From Fibrobacter sp. (GTDB lineage: Bacteria; Fibrobacterota; Fibrobacteria; Fibrobacterales; Fibrobacteraceae): a stretch of 64,000 nt of DNA. A program made the position numbers and the translations under genes. Positions 5,998 through 64,000 of the stretch are shown in pieces (position 1 is the stretch's first letter; each line of letters opens with the position of its first letter). Location of the stretch: the NCBI GenBank assembly GCA_017530965.1, contig JAFXLS010000095.1, forward strand, positions 1-64,000, in the 5' to 3' direction. Under the pieces are notes generated by a model. That model was not told the DNA's origin. It did no database searches and saw nothing but the letters and a program-made list of their open reading frames with translations.

Positions 5998-6001
5998 GAA
6001 A

Positions 6002-6095
6002 TCCTAGGCTACCTGAGCACATAAAAATCCGCAAGTCCGTTGCTGCTTTCGCCCTGGCGATTTGCCCGCAAATAGTCATTGCGCAGGGCCTAGGA
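6002..6095 (-). ncRNA. ffs: Bacterial small signal recognition particle RNA (4.5S-type)
   Basis: About 94 nt. The ends pair perfectly over 8 bp (TCCTAGGC with GCCTAGGA), and the centre of the minus strand carries the SRP helix 8 tip: CCAGG, GC, a GAAA tetraloop, GC, AGCA. The 5' CAGG and 3' AGCA strands are the asymmetric internal loop bound by the Ffh M domain. The RNA works with Ffh and FtsY to target nascent membrane proteins to the translocon. A promoter (6102-6131) places the transcription start at the first base of the stem and a terminator follows at 5971-5997. It is a compact hairpin without an Alu domain. The call rests on motif and fold, not on a covariance search. Confidence 0.88.
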
Positions 6096-6282: not shown

Positions 6283-9200
6283 ATGAAGAATGTAAGAAAA
6301 ATGTTAGATAAATTATGGGTAATTTTCGCCATGGTGGGGACTGTCTCCGCTATGGATATCGCGCCATTTTATTTTGAACATGCATCAGGATTGGATCCAG
6401 AATCCCAGGAAGCAGAATGGGACTACTTGATGAAGTACAAAATGTTCGGTGCTAGTCAAATCAATTTTAACAATACTTTAATTCGTGTCACGGATTCGGT
6501 GGGGTGGTTTGGAACCTCTCACGGAGATTTGAATTTATTGCATAATGGTCTTGATACCATTGGTGGCCCGATTTTGGTTGGTGGAGACCTCAATCTTCAT
6601 ATGGGTCCCGAAGTGTTTACGAATGGTCCCGTAAATGTGACAGGCAATATCACTGTTGATGCGGCAGTTGATTTTTCTAGTAAAGGAAACTTATTCAATG
6701 GAGAACAATGTGTTAAGGGAAGTGTACACTATTTGTATAACAACTTTGTGGCTCCTATAGGTAATGATCCTGATTCTGTTGCTGCACGCAATGCAAAAAT
6801 GCATTTTGGAGAAGATAACTATAAAGATTGTTTCGATGATTCTAAAGGACTTAAAGTTCCTGAAGTGAAGTCAGATTTGTTTATTCCGACGTTAAAAACA
6901 GAACCTGCAACGTATTCTACGACGTTGAGAACTCGTGTTCACAAGATTGAGGGCGGTGCACTTGTATTAGAGCAAGGCAAAACTGGTACTTTTGTTTGGG
7001 ATTCTCTTAATCCTAACAATCAGGTTCTGGAAGTTTATATCCCTTGGGGAGATTCTAAAGAATATTACGATATTTATTTGGACAGTATGAATTTCTCGAA
7101 TTCTGCAACTTTGTTGTTTAATATGCAACCGGGAGGCCGACTGACTCGAGTTTTCTTGAAGAAAGGCATTACGGGTTTTTCGTCGTTCTCAAATATCGCT
7201 GTTCAATATGCTGAATACGATGATGATGGAAATGTGAAAAAAGAATCCAATGGTGATACCACGTATGTAAGGCAGGCAAATGCCGATTATAACGGAACCT
7301 TGCTTTTCTATACACCCAAAGATATTGTGTTCCCGTCGTTTGCAGGAGGTTCTTCAATTCAAGGTTCGTTTATTTCTGCCGGCAAAATTACCATTGCTGA
7401 CCATATGATTCTTGCGGGTCAGTTGCTTGCAGATGTTATTAATATTAACGCAAACTTTGATGGCAAAAACTTCATTTTTGTTCCCTTTAATCCGGCTACA
7501 TTGGACTTTGACCCGACTGCCTTGGCCGAAGGCAAGTTCATCGAAAATAACCAGACGGTTCTTGTACCCATTAAGCTCGATACGCTTGCATCGGTGGATG
7601 TCAGCTTTAAATACTGCTTTGACATAAAGGATTCCAGCCTTACGGATCCGAATTCCAAGATTGCGTCTATTCAGGACTTTAACAATATCACTCCTGTTTG
7701 TGGGAAGGATACTGGTTCTGTAAAGATCCTGGCGGACGATACAATTCCCCGTGGTATTTATAATGTTTACATCAATGTGGCTATAGATACCCTCTTCGAA
7801 GGACAAGAAACTCTTCCTATGAAGGTGTTTAGTTTGGCCGGTGCCGTGTTGCCGGGCAACAAGCGTCAGGGCTCGTTCTCCCTCCCGATTATCGATGATC
7901 CGACTCCGGCATCTCTTAAGAAGATTGTCCTGGATTCCGTTCCCGAGAATTCGCCTGTCGGTACTCGCATCGATAGCCTGATTGCAATCCGTGGTGACAA
8001 ACTCTGCACCCATTGTAAATTCGCACTTGTCGATTCTACCGATTATGTGAATGTGTCTGAATCCGGCTTGGTGACTGTTAAGGATAGCTCTATTTTGGAC
8101 TACGAAACGATTACTGAAATCAAGATTCGTGTATTTGTGATAGATACCTTGTATCAAAAGACTTCTGATACCACGGTTACAATCCCTGTTCTCAATGTGA
8201 ACGAATCCCCGATTCTTGATGCTCAGGAATTTGATATTGCCGAACATATGCCGCCTAAAACTCGTGTTGATTCTATAAAGTGGAAGGAACATGATTCCAT
8301 ACCTGAATTTAGGCTGGATATTTTTGAAGCAATCGGTGGGGCTACAGATGTGTTCGCTGTTGATTCGACCGGTGTAATCACCACGAAGAAAGAACTGGAT
8401 TACGAAACCATGGAAACCACTTATATTTTGGTGGTCAAGTTGGTTGACAAGAATAATCCGGCACTCTTCGATATCGACACGATGACGATTCATGTGCATA
8501 ACGTGAACGAACCGCCGGTTATTACCACCGATACGTTGCATGTCACGGAAAACCCCAAGAAGGGTACGGACGTGGGTGTTGTTGAGGCGAAGGATCCTGA
8601 TGTGGGCGATACCTGGACCTTTACTCTGGTCAAGGATGATAGCGATTGCTTTGAATTGGCTCCGGACGGTTCTGTTACAGTCAAGAAGGACAACTGCCTG
8701 GATCGCGAAAAGACTCCGTTTGTTCAGATTACGGTGAAAGTCACGGATGTTGGCGGACTTTCTCATGTAAAGAATGTTACCGTCGTGGTTGACGATGTTC
8801 CGGGTCCGACCATTGATATTGTCGAGGCCAGCAACGAAGACACGACTTGGAAGTATCCTGAAGTCATCTATACGAACAAGGATTCTCTCAATGTATGCTG
8901 GGAAGTGAACAAGGTAAGACAGCCTTGCGCCGATACCACTCTGAAACCGGGCATAAACAGAATCTGCAAGGAAGTCTGTGATGTGGACGGCTTCGAGGGG
9001 TGCGCCCAGGATTGCTTCACCGCGTACTACAGCGATATTTCGCCGGTGGTTACGGTTTCTGCAGCAAACGATGCCAACTTGGCAAGCAACATCTATACGA
9101 TTGTGGAACGTCCTGCCGATTCCGATACCAATGTGTATGTCAAGGATACGGTGAGCCGTATTACGGTGACTATCACGGACAAGGATCCCATTGACGGCGA

Positions 9201-10845
9201 TACCACGTACAGCTTTACCATCCCTGTGGACTTGACCAAGAAGGTAAATGTTACGCAGACTACTTACGATGCTCTTTCCGCCGTGGCGAACCAGACGGTG
9301 GCCCTTGACGTGCTGCATGCCAATACGACAAGTACGCCGATCAATGGCAACAGCGTGCTGAATTCTTACCCCACGAAGGTTGCGGGCCTGGATGTGACTG
9401 TCAGCTATGTTACCGACAACAAGGGCAACGTGGTGAAGCAGGCTGTTGTAAATGAGAAGGGCAAGGTCGACTCCATTGAAGTTATTACCATCTCTTACGA
9501 GACGGTGATTGACGGCCAGACGGTGAAGATTTCTTACCAGGCTGATGCCGAAACCGGCAAGGCTCTCTACGTGGACGGCAATGGCGGCTTTATCGCTTCC
9601 AAGAACGCAGACCGCTCTAGCGGAATCTTCAAGGTCTCTTACGACTATGTGGACAAGGCTACGGGCAATTCTGTGGAACTGACCTATGTCGTAGACCGAA
9701 AGGGCAACATGGTCAAGAACCCGGATGGCGACCGAGGCTACCAGGTGTCTTACACCTATGTGGACAAGTATGGCAATGCTGCCAAGCAGGCCGTGTTCGT
9801 GGTACTAGACCAGACGCTTCCGGTGGTCGAAATCCTTTCTCCCACGAACAAGCAGGTTGTCCGCTCCAATTCTGTGAAGGTGGAATGGACTATCGACGGC
9901 GTGAAGCAGGATACCCTCGTGTTGCAGGGCCTTGAAAAGGGACCCAATGTAATCGTGCGCTTCTACAAGGATAAGGCCGGTAACGAGGCCTCTGACACCG
10001 TGTACGTGATCATGAAGGACAGCAAGGATATCGATATCTCGGTGGAACAACCTGTAACGGTTGTGACCAAGGATAAGGTTGATGAATACTATGCTGCTAA
10101 TCCGCCCAAGAAGGGCCAGACCTTTGCTGTAAGCATCAGAAACCCCTCTACCGAAGAAGAAGTGGAAACCTTGATCGGTGGCAGCTTCAAGACCCAGGAG
10201 GGTAGCGGCGAGACTCCGTACCCGGGAGTCAAGAGCTCCAAGCATTTGGGCCCGACTCTTGCTCTGGATGTCAAGTTGCCTACCGTAAGCGGCGTTGGTG
10301 GCCTTGCCACCCTTGACGACTTGATTCTTCCGAATGGAAAAATTTCGAATAAGGGTATCGGCGTTGATACGACGGGTCTTGACGAAGAAGCCAAGGCTGG
10401 CTACAAGGAATACACTGTCGAAGAATACGTATCGACCTTCTGCGAACCTGGAACCACTGTTCCCAGTGATCTGAGCCAGTTCAACCTGTACGATATCAAG
10501 CTGAAAACCAGGGTCTGGGTCTATACCTCGTTGGGCAACTACGTGAACGATATCGGATTTACCCAGGAACTGAACGATCCGAATTTCGCAAATGAGGCCG
10601 GCATGACGCAGATGTTCCTTGAACTGAAACCGGATAAGGATGGCTACGTACACGCCGGGAACAAGAAGCTTATGGCTACCGGTGCTTACGTATACAAGGT
10701 CGATGCGAAGTTGACCAACCACCTGCGTTGCTCCATTCCGCCCTTCGACGGCAACAACGCTAAGGTTGCTGGCGACACCTTCAGCTCCAACGACGAACTC
10801 CTGAAGCCCTTCGGCTACAAGCGCCCGTCCCATAAGAAGAAATAG
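6283..10845 (+). CDS. Giant secreted cadherin-repeat surface protein (1520 aa)
   Basis: A signal peptide (about residues 1-23, ending TVSA-MD) precedes a beta-rich region to about 410 with alternating 'GGPILVGGDLNL' and 'GPVNVTGNI' strands and a closing 'SFISAGKITI...GQLLADVI' segment, like the choice-of-anchor A module. Residues about 415-540 resemble a Calx-beta domain. Three cadherin repeats follow (545-837), each with the LDYE/LDRE signature and DVNEPP-type linkers that normally bind calcium. The last 680 residues are shared with the 2716-aa neighbour and end in a basic tail (KRPSHKKK). The ATG has AGGGGG 7 bases upstream. An adhesive surface role is inferred from architecture. The first 1.2 kb is visibly more AT-rich in codon choice than the rest. 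Confidence 0.85.
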   Translation: MKNVRKMLDKLWVIFAMVGTVSAMDIAPFYFEHASGLDPESQEAEWDYLMKYKMFGASQINFNNTLIRVTDSVGWFGTSHGDLNLLHNGLDTIGGPILVGGDLNLHMGPEVFTNGPVNVTGNITVDAAVDFSSKGNLFNGEQCVKGSVHYLYNNFVAPIGNDPDSVAARNAKMHFGEDNYKDCFDDSKGLKVPEVKSDLFIPTLKTEPATYSTTLRTRVHKIEGGALVLEQGKTGTFVWDSLNPNNQVLEVYIPWGDSKEYYDIYLDSMNFSNSATLLFNMQPGGRLTRVFLKKGITGFSSFSNIAVQYAEYDDDGNVKKESNGDTTYVRQANADYNGTLLFYTPKDIVFPSFAGGSSIQGSFISAGKITIADHMILAGQLLADVININANFDGKNFIFVPFNPATLDFDPTALAEGKFIENNQTVLVPIKLDTLASVDVSFKYCFDIKDSSLTDPNSKIASIQDFNNITPVCGKDTGSVKILADDTIPRGIYNVYINVAIDTLFEGQETLPMKVFSLAGAVLPGNKRQGSFSLPIIDDPTPASLKKIVLDSVPENSPVGTRIDSLIAIRGDKLCTHCKFALVDSTDYVNVSESGLVTVKDSSILDYETITEIKIRVFVIDTLYQKTSDTTVTIPVLNVNESPILDAQEFDIAEHMPPKTRVDSIKWKEHDSIPEFRLDIFEAIGGATDVFAVDSTGVITTKKELDYETMETTYILVVKLVDKNNPALFDIDTMTIHVHNVNEPPVITTDTLHVTENPKKGTDVGVVEAKDPDVGDTWTFTLVKDDSDCFELAPDGSVTVKKDNCLDREKTPFVQITVKVTDVGGLSHVKNVTVVVDDVPGPTIDIVEASNEDTTWKYPEVIYTNKDSLNVCWEVNKVRQPCADTTLKPGINRICKEVCDVDGFEGCAQDCFTAYYSDISPVVTVSAANDANLASNIYTIVERPADSDTNVYVKDTVSRITVTITDKDPIDGDTTYSFTIPVDLTKKVNVTQTTYDALSAVANQTVALDVLHANTTSTPINGNSVLNSYPTKVAGLDVTVSYVTDNKGNVVKQAVVNEKGKVDSIEVITISYETVIDGQTVKISYQADAETGKALYVDGNGGFIASKNADRSSGIFKVSYDYVDKATGNSVELTYVVDRKGNMVKNPDGDRGYQVSYTYVDKYGNAAKQAVFVVLDQTLPVVEILSPTNKQVVRSNSVKVEWTIDGVKQDTLVLQGLEKGPNVIVRFYKDKAGNEASDTVYVIMKDSKDIDISVEQPVTVVTKDKVDEYYAANPPKKGQTFAVSIRNPSTEEEVETLIGGSFKTQEGSGETPYPGVKSSKHLGPTLALDVKLPTVSGVGGLATLDDLILPNGKISNKGIGVDTTGLDEEAKAGYKEYTVEEYVSTFCEPGTTVPSDLSQFNLYDIKLKTRVWVYTSLGNYVNDIGFTQELNDPNFANEAGMTQMFLELKPDKDGYVHAGNKKLMATGAYVYKVDAKLTNHLRCSIPPFDGNNAKVAGDTFSSNDELLKPFGYKRPSHKKK

Positions 10846-10860
10846 TCCCTTATTTGAGGT

Positions 10861-10882
10861 GCCCGCTTAGGCGGGCTTCTTG
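10861..10882 (+). terminator. Terminator of the 1520-aa surface protein gene
   Basis: Perfect 6-bp stem GCCCGC-TTAG-GCGGGC followed by TTCTTG, 15 bases after the stop codon. The T tract is short, so termination may be partial. The 240 bases from here to the next gene are AT-rich, with no other feature beyond a likely promoter region for the neighbour. Confidence 0.7.
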
Positions 10883-11120
10883 AATTCAGACGAAAAACGG
10901 CGGTTTGTTTCCTTAACTTTACAAAATGACTGCCGAAAAAGCGTGTCTCTGGTCACGCAATTTTGCGCTTTTGATAAAATGTGAGTTTCTTGTGAATAAG
11001 TTGGAATAAATATGAATGCTTTTTCTATATTACTATTGTAATAATTATAAAAGTTTTGTATCTTTTATAATGGTAAAATATAGGGGTGTTTTATACACTT
11101 AAGCTTTTTAGGAGTTTATT

Positions 11121-14100
11121 ATGTGGTTTGGAAAGAACATAATGACAAAACTCGGCCTTGCACTGGCCATGGCGGTCCCCGCTTTTGCTGCGGACGAAGA
11201 AAATGAAGTTTTTACTCTTGCTCCATTGACATTTCCTGGCGTGAGCGGTGATGAGGCTCAGGAACTTTGGAGCGAGTTGATGAAGTACAAACTTTGGGCT
11301 ACAACTGGCTTCGAAGTTAATAATCGCCTAGAGGTAAAAGAAGAAAAGGGGTGGGTCGGTACATCTAAGGGTGATTTTGAGATTATTGGCCCGGGTGCAT
11401 TAGTGGGTGGGCCCGTTATTATTGGTGGCGACGTTAATCTGCGTGGCTCCGATCAAGCGAAACAGACTGAGTTCTTGACTGGGCCTCTCCGTGTTGAAAA
11501 AAGGCTGACGCTTAGTACAGAAAGCCATTTTTATGGGACTGTTTGTGTTCAGGGCGATACTGTAGCCCCTTCGGGTTTACCATGGAATAGTGAATTTATT
11601 GGTGGTGTATATCAAAATATTCATGGAGAAATGAGGGTTGGTGCTACTCCGGCAACAACGGGGACATGCTCCAACGATAAAGTTGCTTTTGTTGAAAAAA
11701 AGATGACGGTTCCTTCTTTGTCGGGTGTGACGTATAAAGATGGTAATCTTGTTGCGTCGGGAAAAGACTTTAAACTTAATGTTCCCGAAGGAGAGGGGGC
11801 TTATGACCGCTTTTATGAAAGTGTTACAATTAACAGTGATTCTAGGTTGAATATTAATATGCCCAAGGGCGGGCGTTTAACCCGAATTTTTACTAAAAGC
11901 ATAACGTTTAAGGATCAGGCTGAACTTCAAGTCATGTATGATGGAACTCTTTTGTCGAATGAAGAGTACAAAGGGTTACTGATGATATACGTGTCGGGGG
12001 ATATTTATTTTGAAAATACAAACGATAGAAATTTGCAGGGAACTTTTATTAGCTCGGGAACGATTCATACAAAATGCAATATGAAATTTGCTGGGCAGAT
12101 GATTGCTAATAAAATTATTATAGGAAATGAGATTCGAGGTGATGAAGCTTTTAGGTATGTTCCTGTTGTTCCTCCTGTTATAAAACCTACAGCATCTGCA
12201 ATGGGTGGGTTTGTTGAAAATAATACGACTGTGATTATTCCGATATCGTTAAATGCCGTAACAAAAAATGGTGTTAGCTTTAAGTACTGTTTTGATTTGT
12301 CTAACTCTACGGCAGAACTTGCTGACTTTAACGTGGCTCCTAAAAAAGATAAAAATGGAGTTGAATATCCGAAGTTCCCGGTGTGTGGATCTGGGGAAGG
12401 ATCTGTAGAGATTCCTCGAAATGCAACAGAACCGGATAAGAAGGTTTATCTTAATGTGTATCTTGATGATAATGGTGATGAAGAAACTGAAATTCTTAAG
12501 TTGAAAATTTATGATTTGGAAGGTGCTGTGCTGCCTAAAAATAGTGACGGCCTATTTGATTTGAACATTTTGAATGTTCCCTTATTTGATTTTGGTAAAG
12601 TTAAAGAAAACTATTACATTGAGGAAAACTCTGCTCTAGATGATATTGTCGCCGAAATTCCTATTGAGGGACAAGATTTTACGGATTTTGTTATCAGTAT
12701 GGTTGACAATGCTTCTGATACACATCCTGTCAAGCTTAATGATTTATTTAACATCTCTATTGATGAAACAAAAAAATTAGTTGTGATTACGGTTAAGAAT
12801 CATGATGAATTAAATTATGAAAGTGATAGAATAAAGAAGATGTATCAGGTTACATTGAGCCTTCAAGATAAGGGTGGCGTAGAGGGTTGTAAAACTGTAA
12901 CCGCACAAACAACCATTAATATTAAAGATATAAACGAACCTCCGTACTTCGTTAATTTTGGACCGTATGAGGTTAAAGAACATTCTCCTAAAGGAACGTC
13001 TGTTGGTTTTGTCTTAGCGGAAGATCCTGATGATGATCCTGCGTATAACACGCTTGTTTACACAATTCCTGTAAACGAAGATAACGATAAAACGAATGAT
13101 GTCCCGTTTGCCATTAATCCCAGCACGGGTGAAATTACTGTTGCTGAGCCCAATAAAGAAAAGTTTGACTATGAAACACATCCGTTACCTTATGTCTTTA
13201 ATGTTGAAGTGTTTGACAATCTAAACCGCGTTCCGCAAGAGATTGAAATCAGTTTGATTGATATCAACGAACCGCCAATCGTGATAGACACCACTCATGA
13301 TACTATCTCGGTTGCTGAAAATTCGCCGGTTGGTTTGACGAAGATGGCTTATTTTGAAGTTTCTGATCCTGATGCCGCAGATAAAGCCAACCTGTTGACT
13401 CAGATTGTTCCGACCATTACAGATAATGAAAAGAAGAGCGGAGTTGTCTCTGCGGAAGATTTGTTCGAAATGGTCATGGAAAAGGCGAAGGATAAAAATG
13501 GCGTGGACAAGTATTGGGCCGTGCTAAAAGTTAAAGCGGATCTTGACTTCGAAGCCATTATGGCTGCTCGTGGAGATTCTGTATTTGACGTAACCTTGAC
13601 CTTTACTGATCATGGTGGTACGGGGGCAGATGCCAAGGATACCTCGTTCGTCAAGAAAATAGCCGTAACCGACGTGAACGAACCGCCTTACTTTACGTAT
13701 GTTGGCCCGTTTGAAGTTAAGGAGAATTCTGATGAGGGAACTCCTATTGGTGAAGTGATAGCTGCTGATGATGATACAAAGTCTAAATTCAATACACTTT
13801 ATTATACGATTCCGGTGAACGAAGATGCCGATCCGGATAACGACGTCCCGTTTGCTATCGTAGATAAAAAGTCTGGCGTAATTACAGTTGCTAATAAAGA
13901 GGCCTTGGACTTTGAAGATCCCAGCATTCTTGAACACAAGTTTGAATTCAAGGTTCAGGTGACCGATGGAGAATTCCTGAGAGATTCCCTGGTGACAATA
14001 ACCTTGATTGATGACGACGAACCGCCGCATATCATTCCTGAATGCGAAGGTGAAAAGTGCATTGAAATCTGCAAGGGCGATAAGTGTGAAGTTTGCGAGG

Positions 14101-17100
14101 GTGAAAGCTGCCATGAAACTTGCATCGACCACTGCGATGAACCTCGTAATCCGGCTAAAGTCTTGACCGTGACCGTGGATGAAAATTCGCCGACGGGTTT
14201 TGAAATTATCAACTATGCTGTTAGTGATGAAGACCTTCTTGTCAACCATACCAAGTTGGAAGTAACTTTCGATAACACTAACAACTCGGACGCCAAATCC
14301 CTCTTTGTTGCCGAAATGAAGAAGGTGAGTGGTCAATGGCGACTGATTATTTCTGTGAAGGATGGCTCTGCGCTAGACTATGAAAAGATCAAAGAAACTC
14401 ATGAGTTGACAATTTACGTTAGAGATCCCGATGACCGGGAGGGCTTGCGAGACTCGCTCCTCCGTATCATCAAGGTTGTCGACATGAACGAAGCTCCGAA
14501 GATCACTGGCGTTGAAGACCTGAATAATGATATTAAGGCTACAGATAAGGAGGACAATACCTTCTATCCGAAGGAAAATCTCGTAGCTGGTGGCTCTGTG
14601 GGCTACGTCCATACGTATGATCCGGATACATTGCATAAGGATGAATTCGGCTATCGCGAATTCTCGCTCGATAATCCCAATAACTATCCGTTCGAAATGA
14701 AGGACTCTCTGCTGGTCCTGACGAAAAAGCTTGACTATGAGAATGATTCCAAGGAATACACATTCGATGTCATTGTAAATAACTGTGAACGAGCAAAGAA
14801 TAGTGCCGGCAAGTATGAAAAGATTAATCCGCCGAAGTGCACTGAACCAGTAAAGCAGACCGTAACTGTTAAGATTCAGGATGTCCCCGAACCGCCGCAT
14901 ATTATTCCTGAATGCGAAGGTGATAAGTGCATCGAAATCTGCAAGGACGATAATTGTGAAGTTTGCTCTGGAGAAAGCTGCCATGAAACTTGCACCGAAA
15001 ACTGCGATGAACCTCGTAATCCGGCTAAGGTCTTGACTGTGACGGTGAATGAAAATTCGCCGACGGGTTATGAAATCATTAACTATGCTGTTAGCGATGA
15101 GGATCTTCTTGTCAACCATACCAAGTTGGAAGCAACCTTTAGTAACACTAACAATTCGGACGCCAAATCCCTCTTTGTTGCCGAAATGAAGAAGGTGAGT
15201 GGTGAATGGCGACTGATTGTTTCTGTGAAGGATGGTTCTAAGCTTGACTACGAAAAGATCGAAGAAACTCATAATGTAACGATTTACGTAAGTGATCCCG
15301 ATGATCCGGATGGTATGTATGATTCGCTCCTCCGTGTCATCAAGGTTGTCGACGTGAACGAAGCTCCGACTGCCGAAGACGCTGACTTTAAGCCGGAAGA
15401 AAACCTGCCGGATAGCGCAATCGTGGGTGAGTTGAAGGTTGCTGAGCCGGATACCAAGCATGTTCCGGAATTTGGCCATCTGGAATATTCGATTATCGGT
15501 AAGGACGAAACCTTCGTATTTGCAATGGACTCCAATAGGGTTATTGTGAATGACCCGTCCAAGATGGATTATGAACTGCCTGTTCATTTCTACACCTTCG
15601 ATGTCTTGATTGCAAACTGCGAACTGAATTCGACCTCCGGCAAGTATGATGGCGCATGCCTCTATGACACCGCCAAGGTGACGGTCGATATCCAGGATGT
15701 CAACGAGAAGCCGGAAATCATCATTGACGGTCCTACTCCGGACGGTGGTGACGATTCTGAGCCGTTCTGCGTTGCCCATTGCGATACCACGGGTCGTGGT
15801 GTTTGGAAGGATTCTATCCTTACGGTAGGTGTCAAGGAAAATACCGACGATAGTTTGCTCTCTAAGACGGGTATGGTCTTGTTCCAGTACCATTACGTCG
15901 ACGAAGATACTGGCCATGTTGCTGGTGCCAAGGTTACCTGGTTCGATGCTGGCTCGACAATTTCGAGTGTGTCTACGAAGGGTTCCGACCTCTTTAAGAT
16001 TGAGGGCAAAAACGGTGTGATTACGGTGACCGTCAAGGACCAGAAGCTGCTCGATTACGAAAAGCTCAGAAACGCAACGTCTCGTGATGATCCTGATCCG
16101 GAATACACGATGGGCATTGTCGTGACAGACCCGAAGGGATTGAAGGATACTCTCTATCGTATAATCCGCGTGGTTGACGTGAACGAAAAGCCTCTCTATA
16201 CTGCTGAACCTTGTGTAGTTGTCGAAGGCAACCATCCTGGCGACTCTATTGGCCATGTGGAACACCCGAGCGATATCGACTCCTTGTCCAGGAATCCGGC
16301 CTTGTATGATAACCAGTTCAAGATGACTGGAGGCGATTTCGATCGCTTTGAACTGAGAAAGGATTCGACGGACTTGATGAGAGTCATGCTTGCCGCTCTT
16401 GATTCGATTGACTGCGAAGACGGAAGTTATATTTGCGGCGTGGATTCCGTCTATTGGGTTGAATTGACCTATGGTGACACCACACTCAAGACTGTTTATA
16501 ACAACATTAGAATACCGGTCAAGGTGCTCGACTTGAACGAACCTCCTGAGTTTAGGACCGATACCATCGGTGTCGCTGAAAATTCTCCGAAGGGTACCGT
16601 TGTCGATACCATCAAGTGGTTTGATTGGGACCGCTTCGATACTACAATGCACTTTGAAATTTCCAACGATCCGAGCGGTTGTTTCGATATCGACGAAAAG
16701 ACTGGTGTTGTAACGGTTAAGAAGGACAACTGTGCTGATCTTAACTATGAAAAGAACCCGACCCTAAAAATCGAAGTGGCTATTACGGACATGGTGGATG
16801 TCACGGATCGCAGCCTGATTTCTGGTGGTCCCAATACGGTCAAGAAGATTATTACGGTGAATGTCCACGATGTGAACGAACCGCCTTCTATTACGGATAA
16901 GACAATTACCGTCAAGGAAGATACCAAGCCGAAGACGGTTGTCGATACCGTACGTGCTACCGATCCGGATAAGAATCCGGAATATAGGGACCTGACCTAT
17001 ACGCTTATCGGTGGCGATACGGCTACGTTCAAGATTGAACCGAAGACAGGAGCCCTGATTCTGAAGGATACGCTTGACTACGAAACCAAGAGCAGCTACT

Positions 17101-19271
17101 ATGTGACTGTTCGCGTGGATGACGGTGAATTTGCTGATACCGCCAAGGTCAAGATCAATATCGGTAACGTTAAGGAATGGTCCAAGGTCAAGATTACCGA
17201 AGCTGAATCCAAGAGAAAGAATTGGGAAGATCCTGATGTGATTTACATCAACGAAACGATCCACAAGATCTGCTGGACTCAGGATGGCGATGAAGTTTGC
17301 AAGGAAGGTCTGAAGATTGCGAAGGATACCACGATTATCGTGGAATGGAGGAATCCGACCAAGGATTACGCCGGTCGCGATACGTTGCGGATCTACTACA
17401 GCAACTCTATCCCGTCTGTGACGGTTACGGGCAAGAAGACTCTGGTCGATGCCGACAACGTGTTCACCATTGTGGAAGACATGGGTGAGGCTGATACCAA
17501 TATCTATATCAACAAGTCCAGGGACTCTATCTGGGTGAAAATCAAGGACCCCGCAAGCAAGCTTGATACCGCTATTGGTATCGAAGTCAGCCTCGGACCT
17601 GTTGAGGCATCCAAGATTCAGGGATCTTTGGATAAGATGACCAAGGTTGCCGATAGCAAGATCATGCGCGACGAAACCGCAAAGAATGTGGTCGAAACGC
17701 TGGTGAACCGCAACCAGTACAAGTATACTTACAAGGAAATCGTTGGTAAGGATACGGTGAAGGTCTCTTACATGACCGATAAGGACGGTGAACCCATAAA
17801 GGTTCCGGTGATCAACGAAAAGGGCAAGGTTGATTCTGTTGAAGTCATCACGGTGACCTACACGACAACTATCGACGGCAAGGAAGTGGAAGTCTCTTAC
17901 CAGGCTGACGCCTTGACCGGTGAAGTCTTTGTGAAGGGCCCGGCAGGCGAACTGATGGAACAGGGTGCCTCCAAGAAGATCTACGGTTCCGACAAGAATT
18001 CCAAGTCCGGCAATAGCGTGACCGAAGGTATGTTCACCATTACTACGGGTGGCAAGGATATCCTCGGAAACGACAGGGTGATTTCTTACGCGGTCGACAA
18101 GAACGGCAAGATGGTCAAGAACACCGAAGGCGATGTCGGTTACTCTGTAATCTATTCCTACATGAACAAGTACGGCAACGTTGCTACGGAATCCGTGTTC
18201 ATTGTGGTTGACCAGGTTGGCCCGAAGGTCGAAATCCTGTCGCCGGTGAACAAGGAAGTGGTTCGTTCGAATTCTGTGAAGGTGGTATGGACGGTTGATG
18301 GTGTCGAACAGGATACGTTGAACCTCCAGGGACTTTCTAAGGGCCCGAACGTGATCGTGCGCTTCTACCGCGACAAGGCTGGCAACGAAGACTCTGCTGT
18401 GGTTTATGTTTACATGAAGGACAGCAAGGATGTTGAAATTTCTGTTGAACAGCCGGTGACCGAAATCTCGAAGGATAAGATTGAAGAGTACTATGCTGTG
18501 AACCCGCCTGAAAAGGGTGAAACCTTTGCTGTGAGCATCAGGAACCCGACTACGGGCGAAGAAGTGGAAACCTTGATCGGTGGCAGCTTCAAGACCAAGG
18601 AGGGTAGCGGTAAGGAACCCTATCCGGGCGTGTCTGGGTCTTCTCAGCACCTAGGCCCGACCCTTGCCATGGATATCAAGGTGCCTGTGATCGACGGTGT
18701 GGCTGGTCTCGCTACGTTGGATGACTTGATTACTCCGGATGGATTGATCGCTCTCGAACGTACGGATGCCAAGAAGGCTCACAAGATTACGGTTGAAGAA
18801 TACGTCCAGGAATTCTGCGAAGATGGCTTCAAGATTCCGAGCGATGTAAGCCAGGTGAACCTCTTCGACACCAAGCTGAAAGCCCAGATCTGGGTGTACA
18901 CGTCGCTGGGTAACTTTGTGGATTACTTCAGCTTCACTCAGGAACTGAATGATCCGAACTACACGGACGAAGCTGGTCTCTTGAAGATGTACTTCGAAAT
19001 GAAACCGGACAAGGACGGCTTTGTGAAGGCTGACAATGGCAAGCAATATGCTACGGGCGCCTTCGTTTACAAGGTCCAGGCTACAATCCATTCTAAGGCT
19101 CGTTGTACAATTCCGGATAATACCTACGACCCGGAAAACAAGAAGAACTGCGACGCCAAGGAACGTGACTGCGATGGCTACGGTGAAACGACGAAGCGTA
19201 AGGGCGACAACATCAAGAATAGCGATGAGCTCTTGAAGTCCTTCGGTTATCGTCGTCCGAAGAACAAATAA
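11121..19271 (+). CDS. Giant secreted cadherin-repeat surface protein (2716 aa)
   Basis: Paralogue of the 1520-aa protein with the same order of parts: signal peptide (ends VPAFA-AD), anchor-A-like N-terminal region to about 350, Calx-beta-like segment (355-490), about twelve cadherin-type repeats (490-2013) with LDYE/LDFE/LNYE signatures, and the shared C-terminal module (2014-2716) ending in a basic tail (RRPKNK). One unit, including a cysteine-rich linker (CEGEKCIEICKGDKCEVC), occurs twice with a period of 870 bases. AGGAG lies 7 bases before the ATG in a very AT-rich leader. The family suggests calcium-rigidified, cell-surface filaments for adhesion; the ligand is unknown. The minus-strand ORFs inside it are shadows. 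Confidence 0.86.
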   Translation: MWFGKNIMTKLGLALAMAVPAFAADEENEVFTLAPLTFPGVSGDEAQELWSELMKYKLWATTGFEVNNRLEVKEEKGWVGTSKGDFEIIGPGALVGGPVIIGGDVNLRGSDQAKQTEFLTGPLRVEKRLTLSTESHFYGTVCVQGDTVAPSGLPWNSEFIGGVYQNIHGEMRVGATPATTGTCSNDKVAFVEKKMTVPSLSGVTYKDGNLVASGKDFKLNVPEGEGAYDRFYESVTINSDSRLNINMPKGGRLTRIFTKSITFKDQAELQVMYDGTLLSNEEYKGLLMIYVSGDIYFENTNDRNLQGTFISSGTIHTKCNMKFAGQMIANKIIIGNEIRGDEAFRYVPVVPPVIKPTASAMGGFVENNTTVIIPISLNAVTKNGVSFKYCFDLSNSTAELADFNVAPKKDKNGVEYPKFPVCGSGEGSVEIPRNATEPDKKVYLNVYLDDNGDEETEILKLKIYDLEGAVLPKNSDGLFDLNILNVPLFDFGKVKENYYIEENSALDDIVAEIPIEGQDFTDFVISMVDNASDTHPVKLNDLFNISIDETKKLVVITVKNHDELNYESDRIKKMYQVTLSLQDKGGVEGCKTVTAQTTINIKDINEPPYFVNFGPYEVKEHSPKGTSVGFVLAEDPDDDPAYNTLVYTIPVNEDNDKTNDVPFAINPSTGEITVAEPNKEKFDYETHPLPYVFNVEVFDNLNRVPQEIEISLIDINEPPIVIDTTHDTISVAENSPVGLTKMAYFEVSDPDAADKANLLTQIVPTITDNEKKSGVVSAEDLFEMVMEKAKDKNGVDKYWAVLKVKADLDFEAIMAARGDSVFDVTLTFTDHGGTGADAKDTSFVKKIAVTDVNEPPYFTYVGPFEVKENSDEGTPIGEVIAADDDTKSKFNTLYYTIPVNEDADPDNDVPFAIVDKKSGVITVANKEALDFEDPSILEHKFEFKVQVTDGEFLRDSLVTITLIDDDEPPHIIPECEGEKCIEICKGDKCEVCEGESCHETCIDHCDEPRNPAKVLTVTVDENSPTGFEIINYAVSDEDLLVNHTKLEVTFDNTNNSDAKSLFVAEMKKVSGQWRLIISVKDGSALDYEKIKETHELTIYVRDPDDREGLRDSLLRIIKVVDMNEAPKITGVEDLNNDIKATDKEDNTFYPKENLVAGGSVGYVHTYDPDTLHKDEFGYREFSLDNPNNYPFEMKDSLLVLTKKLDYENDSKEYTFDVIVNNCERAKNSAGKYEKINPPKCTEPVKQTVTVKIQDVPEPPHIIPECEGDKCIEICKDDNCEVCSGESCHETCTENCDEPRNPAKVLTVTVNENSPTGYEIINYAVSDEDLLVNHTKLEATFSNTNNSDAKSLFVAEMKKVSGEWRLIVSVKDGSKLDYEKIEETHNVTIYVSDPDDPDGMYDSLLRVIKVVDVNEAPTAEDADFKPEENLPDSAIVGELKVAEPDTKHVPEFGHLEYSIIGKDETFVFAMDSNRVIVNDPSKMDYELPVHFYTFDVLIANCELNSTSGKYDGACLYDTAKVTVDIQDVNEKPEIIIDGPTPDGGDDSEPFCVAHCDTTGRGVWKDSILTVGVKENTDDSLLSKTGMVLFQYHYVDEDTGHVAGAKVTWFDAGSTISSVSTKGSDLFKIEGKNGVITVTVKDQKLLDYEKLRNATSRDDPDPEYTMGIVVTDPKGLKDTLYRIIRVVDVNEKPLYTAEPCVVVEGNHPGDSIGHVEHPSDIDSLSRNPALYDNQFKMTGGDFDRFELRKDSTDLMRVMLAALDSIDCEDGSYICGVDSVYWVELTYGDTTLKTVYNNIRIPVKVLDLNEPPEFRTDTIGVAENSPKGTVVDTIKWFDWDRFDTTMHFEISNDPSGCFDIDEKTGVVTVKKDNCADLNYEKNPTLKIEVAITDMVDVTDRSLISGGPNTVKKIITVNVHDVNEPPSITDKTITVKEDTKPKTVVDTVRATDPDKNPEYRDLTYTLIGGDTATFKIEPKTGALILKDTLDYETKSSYYVTVRVDDGEFADTAKVKINIGNVKEWSKVKITEAESKRKNWEDPDVIYINETIHKICWTQDGDEVCKEGLKIAKDTTIIVEWRNPTKDYAGRDTLRIYYSNSIPSVTVTGKKTLVDADNVFTIVEDMGEADTNIYINKSRDSIWVKIKDPASKLDTAIGIEVSLGPVEASKIQGSLDKMTKVADSKIMRDETAKNVVETLVNRNQYKYTYKEIVGKDTVKVSYMTDKDGEPIKVPVINEKGKVDSVEVITVTYTTTIDGKEVEVSYQADALTGEVFVKGPAGELMEQGASKKIYGSDKNSKSGNSVTEGMFTITTGGKDILGNDRVISYAVDKNGKMVKNTEGDVGYSVIYSYMNKYGNVATESVFIVVDQVGPKVEILSPVNKEVVRSNSVKVVWTVDGVEQDTLNLQGLSKGPNVIVRFYRDKAGNEDSAVVYVYMKDSKDVEISVEQPVTEISKDKIEEYYAVNPPEKGETFAVSIRNPTTGEEVETLIGGSFKTKEGSGKEPYPGVSGSSQHLGPTLAMDIKVPVIDGVAGLATLDDLITPDGLIALERTDAKKAHKITVEEYVQEFCEDGFKIPSDVSQVNLFDTKLKAQIWVYTSLGNFVDYFSFTQELNDPNYTDEAGLLKMYFEMKPDKDGFVKADNGKQYATGAFVYKVQATIHSKARCTIPDNTYDPENKKNCDAKERDCDGYGETTKRKGDNIKNSDELLKSFGYRRPKNK
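14019..15370 (+). repeat. Long internal direct repeat in the 2716-aa gene (period 870)
   Basis: Two near-identical blocks of roughly 480 bases, 14019-14500 and 14889-15370, offset by exactly 870 bases (290 codons). Each encodes the EPPHIIPECEG Cys-rich linker and the following cadherin repeat through VKDGS-LDYEKI. The high nucleotide identity compared with the other repeats points to a recent duplication. Confidence 0.85.
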
Positions 19272-19685: not shown

Positions 19686-19788
19686 AAATTGCGGGAAGGG
19701 AGGCTTGATTTATATCACCAGATAAAAAAAGTCGGTGCTTTTTTCAAAAAAAAAGAATATTTTTTTGAGAGATAAAAGAGGGCTTACG

Positions 19789-21417
19789 ATGGTCAGATAT
19801 TCCGATTCAAGCAAAATGTTTTTACGCTCGTTGATGATTCTTGCCGTAGTGCCAGCAATGGTTTTTTCTGCTCCGGCAGTCGGTAAAGTTCGCATGGCAT
19901 CGGGCGATGTGGACCGCTGGAAGGCAAAACAGAGCACATGGAAGGCAATCGGTACCGGCGATAAGATTTATCAGTCCGACAAGGTGCGCACGGGCGTAGA
20001 ATCCGAAGTGGTATTCGGTCTCCCTGACGGTAGCTCTATCATGATCGGCGAAAAGACCATCGTCGAAATGGAAAGTCTTTTTGAACCCAACGACGAGGGC
20101 GGCTTCGAAACCAAGATTGACGTGGAAAAGGGGTTCTTGAACTTTGCCGTACACAAGCTCAAAAACAAGAAGTCGAAATTTATCTTTAAGACGGGAACTG
20201 CAACTGCATCGATTCGCGGTACCGAAGGTTATATCGGTGGCGAAGGGACTTTCTTTGCAGGCCTGAAGACGGGTAAGCTTGAAATTGAACCCGTTGGTTC
20301 TAACAAGTCTGTGATGATTGGTGCTGGCGAGACTACGTTTGGTAGGGATTCGCTGGTGGTGGTAAGGCTTGCGTCTTCGGGTGAAGCCCGCTTTGCAAAG
20401 CGCCTTATGCAGATTCTTGCAGACAAGTCCAAGTCCGTAAGAGAATTGCAGGCCGAAATGCAGAAGGCCGACAAGGAATTCCAGGAACAGCTGAAAGAAG
20501 AAGCCAAGCAGGCTGCCGCTACGGTACCTGAGAACGGCTTTGTCGTAAGTACCAGTTCTCCGGCAGAAATTTGCGAAGACGGTCTTATGGTTGACGGTTC
20601 TTACCGCACTTCCGACGAATCTGCTTCTCTCATCTTGAAGGTGGGGAACGGCTTTACCTCTAACAACCTGGTCCGTGCCGCTGATGGACAGATTCATTCC
20701 TTCTCTGAATCGGTGATAATCAACGACGAAAACGGTCTTTGGACTGCGGACAAGGCTACCTTGGAATTCAAGGGCGCCGGTCTGACTAGCACCAAGAACA
20801 TTGATTTGCAGGTGAACAAGGCTTGCTCTGGTGTCAACACGAAATCGCCGACGGTAACGATCGCCTCTTACGACTCCTTGCGCTGTGTTGCCAATGTGGT
20901 AGTGGGCGATATGCAAAACGATGCGGGCGTGCTGTCCTATGAATCGGACGGAAGCAGAGTCTCTGAAGAAACGGTGACCAAAAATTCTCAAAAGAGACTC
21001 AAACTGCAAAAGGGGCGTCACGAATATGTGGTGCGCGTCGAAGACCAGGCTTCGAACAAGGTCGAAGTTTCCAAGGTCATGGGGTGCTACCCGAACAAGA
21101 GGTTTACGGTAGAAGTCCTGGGGGGTGCTAAGGAAGTCTTGAGAGTTCCGCCTCCGCCCAATGATATTGCGGACCACATTTCCCAGACGCTTCAGTTTAG
21201 AATCCGAATTTCCGAAAACGACCCCGAATTTTTGTACAAGGTAACGGTTCGACAAAACGGCAAAGTTATCTTGCAGGAATCGCTTTCGCAAATCCACAAC
21301 TTGGATTACCAGATTCCAGTAACCCTTTCGCGTGACGTAAGAAATCATTTTGATATCGAGGTCGTTCACAAGAGTGGGTACACATCAAGAGCTAAGAAGG
21401 ACTACGAGGTGCGTTGA
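19789..21417 (+). CDS. FecR-domain exported protein
   Basis: A 542-residue protein started at the ATG at 19789, which has GAGGG 6 bases upstream; the frame is open 54 bases further but without a ribosome binding site. It has a signal peptide (ends MVFSA-PAVG) followed by a FecR-type domain (about residues 25-170: VRTGVESEVVFGLPDGSSIMIGEKT, then TATASIRGTEGYIGG), a short coiled region (QAEMQKADKEFQEQLKEEAKQ), then Ig-like/beta-rich segments. Free FecR domains occur in envelope proteins outside iron signalling, and no sigma factor or TonB receptor is nearby. Its stop overlaps the next start (TGATG), so it is translationally coupled to the beta-helix/barrel protein. Confidence 0.83.
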   Translation: MVRYSDSSKMFLRSLMILAVVPAMVFSAPAVGKVRMASGDVDRWKAKQSTWKAIGTGDKIYQSDKVRTGVESEVVFGLPDGSSIMIGEKTIVEMESLFEPNDEGGFETKIDVEKGFLNFAVHKLKNKKSKFIFKTGTATASIRGTEGYIGGEGTFFAGLKTGKLEIEPVGSNKSVMIGAGETTFGRDSLVVVRLASSGEARFAKRLMQILADKSKSVRELQAEMQKADKEFQEQLKEEAKQAAATVPENGFVVSTSSPAEICEDGLMVDGSYRTSDESASLILKVGNGFTSNNLVRAADGQIHSFSESVIINDENGLWTADKATLEFKGAGLTSTKNIDLQVNKACSGVNTKSPTVTIASYDSLRCVANVVVGDMQNDAGVLSYESDGSRVSEETVTKNSQKRLKLQKGRHEYVVRVEDQASNKVEVSKVMGCYPNKRFTVEVLGGAKEVLRVPPPPNDIADHISQTLQFRIRISENDPEFLYKVTVRQNGKVILQESLSQIHNLDYQIPVTLSRDVRNHFDIEVVHKSGYTSRAKKDYEVR

Positions 21418-24400
21418 TGAAACTTAGGGTTTGGATATCAACAGCAATATGTATGGCAGCACTCCATGTGAGTGCTTTTGCCGTTGATAAGGGGAGCCAG
21501 CCGGGGAGTATTATTGGGGGCGAAATTAGCGGTTTTTTGAAAAAAGACAGGTCGCCCTATTTGGTTCAAGAGACTTTGGTGGTGCCCGAAGGCAAGGCCT
21601 TGGTCGTAGAAGCGGGAACCGAGATTTTCTTTAACGAGGGAACTGGAATTGATGTCCGTGGAGGTTCCCTTGCCGTGATGGGTGAACACTACAATCAGGT
21701 GGTGATGACCTCTGCCGAAGGGGATAAACCCTGGAACGGCATTGCCGTTACGGGTGCGAAGCGTTCCGAAATGCAAGGAGTCTCGATTGAAAATGCCACC
21801 TTTGGCGTTGCAGTGGAAAGTGGTACCCTGGAAATTCGCGACGGTATCGTCAGGAATGCGTCTAGGGCGGCCGTCTATGTGCGTAATGGTGCTGTTTCTA
21901 TGCAGTGGTCCCAGGTAGAAGATTGCCCCAATATCGGTGTATGGGCCACTGCCAGTGCTGTGGTGGATATCGATGCCACATCTTTATCGAATAACCGGAT
22001 TGCCTTGGTTGCTGGTGAGGGATCTACGGTGAATTTGAAGCGTGCCCACCTGGATGTAAACGAGGTGGCTATTCTTGATTTTGGCGAAAACAACCTTAAA
22101 CAAAGAAGTTCCGTTATTGACGGGAATGAAATTGGCGTTGTGTCCAACGATATTCCCCCTGAAGATATTCGCCAGTCCCTGGAAAAAAACAAGACTATGT
22201 TTTCGAGGAATTCCGGGTATTACCAGAATACATTGGGCGAAGAACCGGTTAACCCTTATGCCGATGCGGTTAAGTATGCCATGGGTTATAATGAACCTCC
22301 TATGGATTCATCCTGGACTGTTTCGGGTAGCGTAGGCATTGAACTGGGCTACCACAAGGTGCTCACTCGTCACAATTCCACAGGTGAAGCCTACGTTTCT
22401 GACAAGGATACGGTGCAGCCGGGCGAGCGTTTTATCAATTATTTCCAGGTTCCCGGTTTCTTTACGAACTGGAATGCGAACTTGTCCATGAAATCTCCGT
22501 CGGGAGCCCTCCTGGAATTTACGGTTGACGCTTCCAGCGATTCCTGGGATAACCTTAAGCTGTATCAGCTGCAGGCAAGCTATACAGACGATATGCAGCG
22601 TTTGATTTTGGGTGATTTCTTTACGAATGGGGGTGAACTCTATTTGGCTGGAGTCAATGCCTTTGGTGGCATGTACGATTTGTCCCTGTTTAAGAATTCG
22701 GCCAATGATCCCATGTTTGTAGGTTCCGTATTTGCGGGTGAAATGAATGCCCCTAAACTGGTAGGTAACCGCAATTACGATGTGTATCAGGACTATATTG
22801 ACGATGGTGAAGCCGAGGCCCAGAGAATGGTGGTGGGCGGAAAAGTCCGCTGGAATATGCACCGCCGCTTTAATGGAACCTTGGGCTTTGTGGCAAGCAA
22901 GGATTATCTGGAAGATCCCTTCCTGAGAGATGGTGGGTTGCCCGAAACCAATACGTCGAGCCCGCTGATTTCATCGAGAACCTTCTTTGCTGACGGAAAC
23001 TGGCTCTTTTACCCGGGCGATGTCAAGTTGAACGGCCAGATTGCAGTGGGTGGAGCCGATACGGTGAATGCCGCCAAGATTCGGGCTGTCAACCAGGTGT
23101 TCTCGGACGCAGGACTTGATCCGTCGAATTTTGCGTTGCTGAACAAGTTGATGGGCAACGAGAATCAGGTGAATTCCTTGACCACCTCCCAGTTAGAATC
23201 GATCTTCGGTGAAAATTCCATGAAGACGCCTTCTGAAATGCGAGCTGAATTGAAGAAGCTGTTGGCGAAAGCTTCTAAGGTTGCAAAACAGACTTATGTG
23301 AATGACAGCAGGCCCACGGGCGGTGAATTCTGGGGCCATGAACATTGGGCTTTTGCCGGATCGTATCAGTGGTCTAATTCGACTACCTTTATCGAGGGCT
23401 TCTTGAGGTTTGTGGGTAGCGAGTATTATAGTGCCGGTTCCGAAGATTTGTTACAGAACACCCGCATGATTGGCGGTAACTTGAAACATCAGGTCTATGA
23501 TTTCTGGAATCTGGGTTTTGGCTATACCATGAATATTGAAAATGCGGCCGGTGAAGGCGACGACTACAACATATTCGGTATGGGCGAAGGTTCTCGCTGG
23601 GGCTTCTTTACCGGTGCCGATGATGATTGGCTTAAGGATCATGAGCAGGACCCGGTGCGTACAGTGTATATTCATGATGGTTACTTGAAGAACGACTTTG
23701 AGTTGAATGAACTAGTGGGCCTGACTTTCAAGTATGCCTTTAATTACAGGACTCGTAGCACGCCCCAGCGTTTGTATGCCAATTATTCGGCCACTTCGGG
23801 TGTCTATGATGATCCCTGGTTTAGCCCCAGGAGTGGACGTCCTACGTTGAAGGTGTTCAACGGCAAGGATTCCCTTGAAATCGATTCCATAAGTGCCGCA
23901 ATGTACTATGAGCTTGCTGACGAAGACTATTTGGCAACCCAGTTCGAAGAAAAGCTGATGAAACATACCCTTGAATTGGGATTCGCATTTAGGCTGCCCA
24001 AGAACGTGTTGAAGGTGGGTGCTGCTTTGGTGGCCTTTATGGATATGTCGGAATTCAAGCAAGATGAATTGCTGATCCCCTTTAATTTCAGGAACGAGAC
24101 CTATGGTGCTCTAGGGTATTATTTCCACGGCAGCGATTACCTGGAACAACGTTATCCGATGTCTTTGACGACAACACTGGATGGATTGAAAAATACGCTT
24201 TCGTTGATGCCCAGGTACAAGATTTATAACCGAAACGAGATGCGGGAATTTGAATGGAGTTTTGGGGACAATATGGAAATCGAACTGTCTCCTGAATTCA
24301 TGGAGCTTACGTTGTCGGGAGGCTTGCGCCAGAATTTCTTGTCATACGAAATCGATGACACCGATTACGATGAAATGGAACTGGATTTAGATGCTTCTGC

Positions 24401-24536
24401 AAAATTGCGGATACATCATTCCCGTTCCCTTTATTCAGACTGGACTTTGGGCTCGATTTTCAATTATCGACCGGATAATAAAGCCGACCAATATAAGGAT
24501 TTTTATATAATTGCTGCATTGAACTACGATTTTTAG
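21417..24536 (+). CDS. Beta-helix plus outer-membrane barrel protein
   Basis: A 1039-residue protein. I start it at the ATG at 21417, which overlaps the FecR stop by one base; the open frame includes a TTG one codon earlier. Signal peptide MKLRVWISTAICMAALHVSAFA. Residues about 35-265 form short repeated strands (VEAGTEIFF, LAVMGEHYNQVVMTS, VSIENATFGVAVESGTLEIRDGIVRNAS) typical of a right-handed parallel beta-helix; from about 290 to the C terminus there are long amphipathic strands with many aromatics, ending IAALNYDF with a terminal Phe, as expected for an outer-membrane barrel. Coupling to the FecR gene and proximity to the giant surface proteins suggest a shared envelope role, by inference only. 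Confidence 0.8.
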   Translation: MKLRVWISTAICMAALHVSAFAVDKGSQPGSIIGGEISGFLKKDRSPYLVQETLVVPEGKALVVEAGTEIFFNEGTGIDVRGGSLAVMGEHYNQVVMTSAEGDKPWNGIAVTGAKRSEMQGVSIENATFGVAVESGTLEIRDGIVRNASRAAVYVRNGAVSMQWSQVEDCPNIGVWATASAVVDIDATSLSNNRIALVAGEGSTVNLKRAHLDVNEVAILDFGENNLKQRSSVIDGNEIGVVSNDIPPEDIRQSLEKNKTMFSRNSGYYQNTLGEEPVNPYADAVKYAMGYNEPPMDSSWTVSGSVGIELGYHKVLTRHNSTGEAYVSDKDTVQPGERFINYFQVPGFFTNWNANLSMKSPSGALLEFTVDASSDSWDNLKLYQLQASYTDDMQRLILGDFFTNGGELYLAGVNAFGGMYDLSLFKNSANDPMFVGSVFAGEMNAPKLVGNRNYDVYQDYIDDGEAEAQRMVVGGKVRWNMHRRFNGTLGFVASKDYLEDPFLRDGGLPETNTSSPLISSRTFFADGNWLFYPGDVKLNGQIAVGGADTVNAAKIRAVNQVFSDAGLDPSNFALLNKLMGNENQVNSLTTSQLESIFGENSMKTPSEMRAELKKLLAKASKVAKQTYVNDSRPTGGEFWGHEHWAFAGSYQWSNSTTFIEGFLRFVGSEYYSAGSEDLLQNTRMIGGNLKHQVYDFWNLGFGYTMNIENAAGEGDDYNIFGMGEGSRWGFFTGADDDWLKDHEQDPVRTVYIHDGYLKNDFELNELVGLTFKYAFNYRTRSTPQRLYANYSATSGVYDDPWFSPRSGRPTLKVFNGKDSLEIDSISAAMYYELADEDYLATQFEEKLMKHTLELGFAFRLPKNVLKVGAALVAFMDMSEFKQDELLIPFNFRNETYGALGYYFHGSDYLEQRYPMSLTTTLDGLKNTLSLMPRYKIYNRNEMREFEWSFGDNMEIELSPEFMELTLSGGLRQNFLSYEIDDTDYDEMELDLDASAKLRIHHSRSLYSDWTLGSIFNYRPDNKADQYKDFYIIAALNYDF

Positions 24537-63830: not shown

Positions 63831-64000
63831 GAACATCCCTTTTTTTATTGAAAATAGGTTTTCTGCGCCAAAAATGGAAAAAAAAGAACTTCTTTTTTGT
63901 TTACATGTGTGTAATTTGTGAGCGTAATCAAGTTTTTGGGGCTTTGGGTGCCGTTTTTAGGCGGTTTTTGGGGTGGAAATTACTAGATTGCTGGGCATGA

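Follow-up and report, generated by a model that had tools for sequence, protein, structure and literature searches.

It has long been asked how Fibrobacter, which has no cellulosome, grips cellulose. Among large bacterial adhesins, the SprB-type giant T9SS adhesins of Flavobacterium combine repeats with a sorting region at the C terminus and have outer-membrane neighbours. Fibrillar adhesins, as described in the available portions of two papers (PMC9210967, PMC8286594), carry an adhesive-type tip on a repeat stalk with a conserved anchor end, and their tips evolve fast; in the Csh/PAD adhesins a tip domain has been moved between adhesins (PMC10952558, in part). In F. succinogenes, the T9SS type A cargo (TIGR04183, BTD/Fpm-1) consists of secreted envelope proteins with a C-terminal domain, SprA is present, and the BTD and Fpm-1 ends have been proposed as T9SS signals (accessible sections of PMC6851124). 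The Fibrobacter literature that we searched, for the most part papers outside subscription, gave no account of a shared C-terminal domain or of head exchange.

We analysed a 64,000-nucleotide stretch of a Fibrobacter sp. genome (the window; GCA_017530965.1, contig JAFXLS010000095.1, positions 1 to 64,000), in which two neighbouring genes, here called CAD1 and CAD2, encode giant cadherin-repeat proteins (Table 1). We computed their architecture, a predicted head fold, a C-terminal family shared with other large proteins, the presence of SprA and the exchange of heads between strains. Our reading, to which we give a probability of about 0.6, is that both proteins are surface adhesins of the fibrillar type, whose tips recombine and whose C-terminal sorting or anchoring domain is a Fibrobacter one, probably linked to the T9SS. 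They resemble the described fibrillar adhesins in tip, stalk, conserved end and fast-evolving tip, but differ from what the available portions of those papers describe in the ice-binding-fold tip with its Calx-beta domain, in the Fibrobacter-type C-terminal domain and in the replacement of whole heads between sister strains. Compared with the Csh/PAD case, as far as the accessible text goes, the fold is another one, and heads are for the most part exchanged between alleles of a single locus, with breakpoints visible at the DNA level.

Table 1. Features of the cadherin locus and its neighbours (window positions)
Feature	Position	Strand	Basis
CAD1, 1520-aa secreted-type protein: head, Calx-beta, 3 cadherin repeats, C-terminal module	6283..10845	+	
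CAD1 signal peptide, aa 1-23	6283..6351	+	Read from sequence
CAD1 exchange tract, DNA 94-100% identical to G133; downstream 59-73%	6283..8142	+	Sliding identity
CAD1 head, predicted ice-binding-like (DUF3494) beta-solenoid, strain-exchangeable	6352..7482	+	AlphaFold model, VIA-align, exchange data
CAD1 Calx-beta domain, aa about 403-542	7489..7908	+	Foldseek, VIA-align
CAD1 cadherin repeats	7915..8802	+	Pfam PF00028, 3 stretches
CAD1 C-terminal module, aa 841-1520	8803..10842	+	Alignment to CAD2 module; structure model
CAD1 last beta-rich region, module residues 408-680	10024..10842	+	Model, profiles
CAD1 final 119 aa, core common to GH9 giants and fibro-slime proteins; FGYKRP close to end	from 10486	+	
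CAD2, 2716-aa secreted-type protein, CAD1 plan with longer stalk	11121..19271	+	
CAD2 head and Calx-beta, aa 24-490	11190..12590	+	Alignment to CAD1 head
CAD2 cadherin stalk	12591..17177	+	Pfam PF00028, 7 stretches
Cys-rich insert 1, CAD2 stalk, 8 Cys in 31 aa	14043..14135	+	
Cys-rich insert 2, CAD2 stalk, 8 Cys in 31 aa	14913..15005	+	
CAD2 C-terminal module, aa 2020-2716	17178..19268	+	Alignment to CAD1 module
FecR-domain secreted-type protein, conserved neighbour	19735..21417	+	PF04773, 2e-10
Beta-helix protein, probable outer-membrane barrel, 1040 aa, Phe end	21414..24536	+	PF13229, 9e-8; synteny; barrel inferred from sequence only

Two tandem proteins of one plan

The original prediction placed here two tandem genes for proteins of the same plan, and both were confirmed with the lengths and boundaries of Table 1. 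Each protein has a signal-peptide-like start, a head of ~380 aa, a Calx-beta domain, cadherin repeats and a C-terminal module of ~680-700 aa. The predicted conservation of this module is borne out by 53% identity between the two copies over 724 alignment columns, and the predicted basic tail by final residues rich in lysine and arginine. BLASTP between the two gives E = 0.0 across the C-terminal half and 4e-63 across the N-terminal part. With apparent secretion, an adhesive-type domain at the presumed tip, a repeat stalk and a conserved module at the opposite end, the layout is that of a fibrillar adhesin. Just 5' of CAD1 lies a small signal recognition particle RNA (5999-6095, - strand; RF00169, 42.4 bits, gathering 40).

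Pfam Cadherin (PF00028, cut-off 28.8 bits) matches CAD1 with 81.9 bits (4.5e-23) in three stretches and CAD2 with 192.8 bits (1.2e-57) in seven. The expected count of three repeats thus holds for CAD1; for CAD2, about 12 repeats had been predicted, which is not the count of the HMM, though the stalk (aa 491-2019, ~1530 aa) has space for 12-14 repeats of ~110 aa. Nine DxNEP-like motifs occur along it, and the two Cys-rich inserts sit in a duplicated stretch of ~290 aa. A related locus (L039) has a Cys-rich insert that resembles these two. In cadherins, calcium stiffens the stalk.

Counterparts of both proteins are likely to exist in strain S85, judging by adjacency, name, size and pI. FSU_2931 and FSU_2932 are cadherin-domain proteins of its cell envelope proteome, the latter of 317.9 kDa and pI 4.69 (PMC4619616, accessible part). 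In five genomes whose genes are of similar length, the CAD2 proteins have masses of 315.6-320.3 kDa and pI values of 4.59-4.74, and the identity of FSU_2932 is likely because it fits both ranges. The mass printed for FSU_2931 in the same accessible part is 22.06 kDa, which misfits the CAD1 proteins (201.8-217.1 kDa in four of these five genomes) and may be a misprint.

Predicted fold of the heads

Neither head gave a Pfam match above cut-off, PF11999 reaching 12.4 bits against a curated cut-off of 28.7, and a search of both heads against NCBIfam, including the choice-of-anchor A models, gave none at E <= 10 with HMMER filters that drop weak matches. The N terminus had been called anchor-A-like; this reading found no support in NCBIfam, and the predicted fold is instead the beta-solenoid of ice-binding proteins (DUF3494). 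The AlphaFold model of the CAD1 head (pLDDT 76, pTM 0.79, built with 12 sequences) superimposes by VIA-align on ice-binding proteins with Z up to 14.9 over 202 residues at 3.0 A, and the predicted model matches more than 20 ice-binding entries at Z 13.8-14.9 over ~200 residues. The pilin ComZ follows at Z 13.8 and tapirins at Z 12.2, 11.6 and 11.0 (PDB 4wa0, 6n2b, 6n2c). Foldseek was less even for this fold (0.99 for 6eio, 0.92 for 6bg8, 0.51 for a tapirin, with no match at E <= 0.001). In the model, then, the head is an ice-binding-type beta-solenoid. Its second domain matches Calx-beta (CALX-CBD1, Z 10.4 over 108 residues; Foldseek probability 1.00), in agreement with the Calx-beta-like segment predicted at first. 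The tapirins of Caldicellulosiruptor share the solenoid with the CAD1 head, but sequence identity over the aligned part is just 11-19%. To our knowledge they have neither a cadherin stalk nor the Fibrobacter C-terminal domain.

Heads are exchanged between strains

To compare heads and modules we read 78 open reading frames of more than 1200 aa, dropped 19 that lacked the end motif (mostly antisense frames) and kept 59 proteins with a complete end, in which median identity is 32% for the head and 54% for the module. In 18 genomes, chosen by availability rather than at random, both genes are complete in the fetched stretch. There, the identity matrices of the module halves correlate with each other at 0.96 and 0.92 and those of module 1 and module 2 at 0.94, while head and C-terminal module half correlate at 0.53 and 0.64. 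Single-link clustering at 70% splits the heads of the two slots into 10 and 16 clusters and the modules into 4 and 4. Six genome pairs have modules at least 90% identical; their heads are at most 52% identical in 4/6 for the first slot and at most 45% in 5/6 for the second.

Sister strains illustrate this most directly. Between G103 and G100 the modules are 99% and 99% identical and the heads 33% and 34%; for G098 and G063 the figures are 96% and 98% against 33% and 45%. At the DNA level G103 and G100 are 86-100% identical across module, FecR gene, barrel gene and GH9 gene, fall to 47-61% in both heads and are also lowered in part of the second stalk. G136 differs from G135 almost exclusively in the first head. 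The opposite arrangement occurs in the window, where CAD1 shares 97% of its head and 60% of its module with G133, identity breaking near position 8140, after the head and the first part of the cadherin region. The CAD2 head is 77% identical to that of G097 and 32-39% identical to those of genomes with closer modules. In 32/36 cases a head has its nearest neighbour in the same slot, so exchange is mostly allelic. A search for silent head cassettes in the source genome (82.6% complete) returned only the two matches that are CAD1 and CAD2 themselves. Spare heads in the 3.5 kb between CAD2 and the FecR gene of some relatives were also considered and rejected, because the stretch holds a transporter/acyltransferase-like gene instead; at two loci (L041 13276-16728, L050 4876-8328) it reads as a 1150-aa transporter/acyltransferase/acyl-CoA-ligase-like gene.

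On these identities, heads are swapped as cassettes between strains and species while modules are kept. The simplest mechanism would be homologous recombination, with the conserved start (signal peptide and upstream region) as one flank and the cadherin repeats as the other, so that one locus would display many tips on a constant anchor.

These proteins had been predicted to be cellulose adhesins. The adhesin-type layout stands, but cellulose is unproven as a ligand because hypervariable heads that strains swap with one another would be odd in a protein that binds a chemically constant substrate; the fold match leaves the ligand unnamed. The tips may bind the plant cell wall, other cells or both. 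Heads that bind variable partners such as other cells, hemicellulose decorations or host glycans, or that vary against phages, protozoa or host antibodies, and do not bind cellulose, are a serious contender at only somewhat less than an even chance: replacement among near-identical strains would be unusual for constant cellulose, the ice-binding fold serves several ligands and is found in pilin ComZ too, and FSU_2931 was recorded on glucose (4) as well as on AS cellulose (2) in the accessible data of PMC4619616. Against it, the tapirins with which the heads share their fold are surface proteins that attach to plant material (PMC9933333, in the text available), a GH9 gene lies downstream of the pair in the window and in 9/38 related stretches (many of the 38 stop short of this position), and microcrystalline cellulose is the only substrate on which FSU_2932 appears, its entry in the peptide column being 2 (PMC4619616, same data). 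With cellulose constant and the tips variable, we therefore weigh recognition or evasion nearly as high as plain cellulose binding. Head exchange suggests a driver other than constant cellulose, and might underlie differences among rumen strains in niche, partner or phage specificity.

A C-terminal domain shared with GH9 giants and fibro-slime proteins

The C-terminal module had been described as matching no familiar family, and Pfam and NCBIfam scans agree, since no curated family covers it; a sequence search of the PDB also gave nothing useful. The profile search and structure prediction proposed as checks mapped its distribution across the phylum and yielded the head fold, but the model of the CAD1 module (pLDDT 80, pTM 0.58) had no confident match in the PDB, only generic beta-sandwiches with a best Z of 6.4. 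The last 343 aa of CAD1 match 109/167 genomes of the phylum at E <= 0.001. All 80 Fibrobacter genomes are included, with strong matches in 78 and weak ones in G065 and G130 (1e-4, 4e-4), at 1-6 module copies per genome; tandem pairs are common, and G086 has four in a row. The module was expected to be Fibrobacter-specific: within the phylum searched, strong E-values are confined to the Fibrobacteraceae, but other genera of the family match strongly too. At the DNA level, the pattern FGY-x-R-P occurs at three places in the source genome (CAD1, CAD2 and one on contig C52), against one for the backwards control.

A profile of 41 cadherin ends (A2) matches 10 proteins of the source genome at E <= 10. 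CAD1 and CAD2 score below 1e-60, four more between 7e-11 and 6e-4, and the last four weakly, at 0.04 to 0.4. Besides the cadherin pair, the matches comprise six fibro-slime proteins, each above the TIGR02148 cut-off, and a tandem of giant GH9 cellulases of 2002 and 2145 aa; a G-x-[KR]-R motif stands at the end of all eight. Profile-profile comparison with hhalign gave 99.3% for cadherin against GH9 ends, 97.8% for cadherin against fibro-slime and 99.1% for GH9 against fibro-slime, in a set chosen insofar as the GH9 and fibro-slime rows had been picked with the cadherin profile, and 99.65% across 219 columns for cadherin against GH9 with longer ends; six unrelated controls reached at most 0.53%. 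The 15 fibro-slime rows are presumed to be such by likeness to the six tested proteins; 3/30 TIGR04183 loci and 2/20 fibro-slime-type loci had no readable end and were left out, and three loci were set apart as 'outer'. By these comparisons the last 120-220 residues of the module are homologous to the ends of the GH9 giants and fibro-slime proteins, and the module is therefore not restricted to cadherin adhesins. A joint profile (A6), some rows of which come from the source genome, finds the domain in 143/167 genomes of the phylum and at 13 places in the source genome, 10 of which we identified. One domain that marks cadherin proteins, the largest GH9 cellulases and fibro-slime proteins is a single testable handle on the attachment machinery.

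A distant relationship of the domain to the FlgD_ig-type Ig-like group is probable, because FlgD_ig (PF13860) is matched by some outer relatives of the family, 3/43 A6 members (best E 7.9e-4), and one of the 43 grazes PF18962 (E 0.05); none of 17 members of a second set (A3), which holds both window ends, matches FlgD_ig. In a termite-gut genome, a fibro-slime protein with a 'flgD' domain was read as a possible flagellar link (PMC4704652, available part), for which the shared domain would offer a simpler explanation. A 552-aa protein in the window (41619-43277) narrowly passes the fibro-slime cut-off with 45.4 against 45 bits; its fibro-slime domain runs to the very end of the protein and leaves no space for the shared C-terminal domain.

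Relation to the type IX secretion system

The shared domain suggests, from its sequence distribution, a common export or anchoring tag. In the source genome TIGR04183 matches 62 places at E <= 1, and 42 of these exceed the cut-off; it has matches in 13/14 control genomes and is over cut-off in one. The ends of CAD1 and CAD2 have no match to TIGR04183 over cut-off, and hhalign against it gave 0.8-6% over all three sets (cadherin, GH9, fibro-slime), with 1% for the cadherin ends; nor did PF18962 or CHU_C match the C-terminal domain over cut-off. Judged by profile, the cadherin, GH9 and fibro-slime ends are thus a family distinct from the TIGR04183 (BTD/Fpm-1) cargo, and T9SS export of this family is no more than probable. 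The adhesins also resemble the SprB type in being very large repeat proteins with a putative C-terminal sorting region and outer-membrane neighbours, but the family scans reported no type B sorting domain (TIGR04131/PF13585, which we take to be that domain). SprA_N (PF14349) is present in the source genome, in 76/80 genomes of the genus and in 40/40 of good quality, and in 0/14 controls; PorV is weak, being over cut-off in 3/31 genomes. In the part of the list available from PMC6851124, FSU_0809 (GH9) stands with neither BTD nor Fpm-1 annotated; from numbering, family and a mass of 233 kDa (PMC4619616, accessible part), FSU_0809 and FSU_0810 look like the tandem GH9 giants.

That the domain is a mere structural Ig-like cap, with export by another route and another anchor, we hold to be unlikely. 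Its sequence matches none of the known T9SS sorting domains, and type II/III secretion has been proposed for the cellulases (PMC4668043, as excerpted), both of which speak for a cap; but it is C-terminal in every member read, where it ends otherwise unrelated large proteins, and 43/43 A6 rows have the Gly and the Arg of the G-x-x-R motif at the end. The attachment or export role first proposed for the module is compatible with a conserved end that fits sorting or anchoring, a role that we infer. For surface adhesins with a sorting or anchoring domain, export would begin with Sec, and all later steps are proposals: the SprA-type T9SS translocon encoded by the genus would be the most likely route across the outer membrane, guided by the C-terminal domain; the module would then lie on the side of the cell, with the final 120-220 residues serving as sorting or anchoring tag, and the calcium-stiffened cadherin stalk would hold out the solenoid tip and Calx-beta domain at the surface. 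More tentatively, and at clearly less than even odds, a second sorting class other than TIGR04183 may deliver cadherin adhesins, GH9 giants and fibro-slime proteins alike, with the cadherin locus as a recombining display for recognition or evasion rather than a fixed cellulose binder.

Downstream neighbours and other window proteins

A dedicated exporter or anchor of both adhesins, as SprF is for SprB, might be encoded by the FecR/beta-helix-barrel pair downstream. Of 38 related stretches, 26 have a FecR homologue, in most cases followed by the barrel gene. We nevertheless consider such a partnership quite improbable: the other 12 stretches have no FecR match (some end early or hold a split-off copy), among them a locus with both cadherin genes and ~6 kb read downstream (L048), a terminator-like stem separates CAD2 from the FecR gene, the GH9 giants have the shared domain and, as far as the stretch was read, such a pair neither lies between them nor follows directly, and a paralogous pair elsewhere has no cadherin gene in the stretch read. 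A barrel gene serving all shared-end proteins was dropped on these last two grounds. The paralogous barrel gene (L191, G000:C85) is 39% identical, and the end of the gene upstream of it resembles that of the FecR-domain protein.

Further along the window, two tandem TIGR02171 lipoproteins (55506-58247, 58244-60958) might be T9SS-ring-like parts, because the second weakly matches GldK/PorK (2e-4) and PorE (0.003). A 448-aa protein on the - strand (62490-63836) has a TIGR04183 tail below threshold (17.6 bits, cut-off 23).
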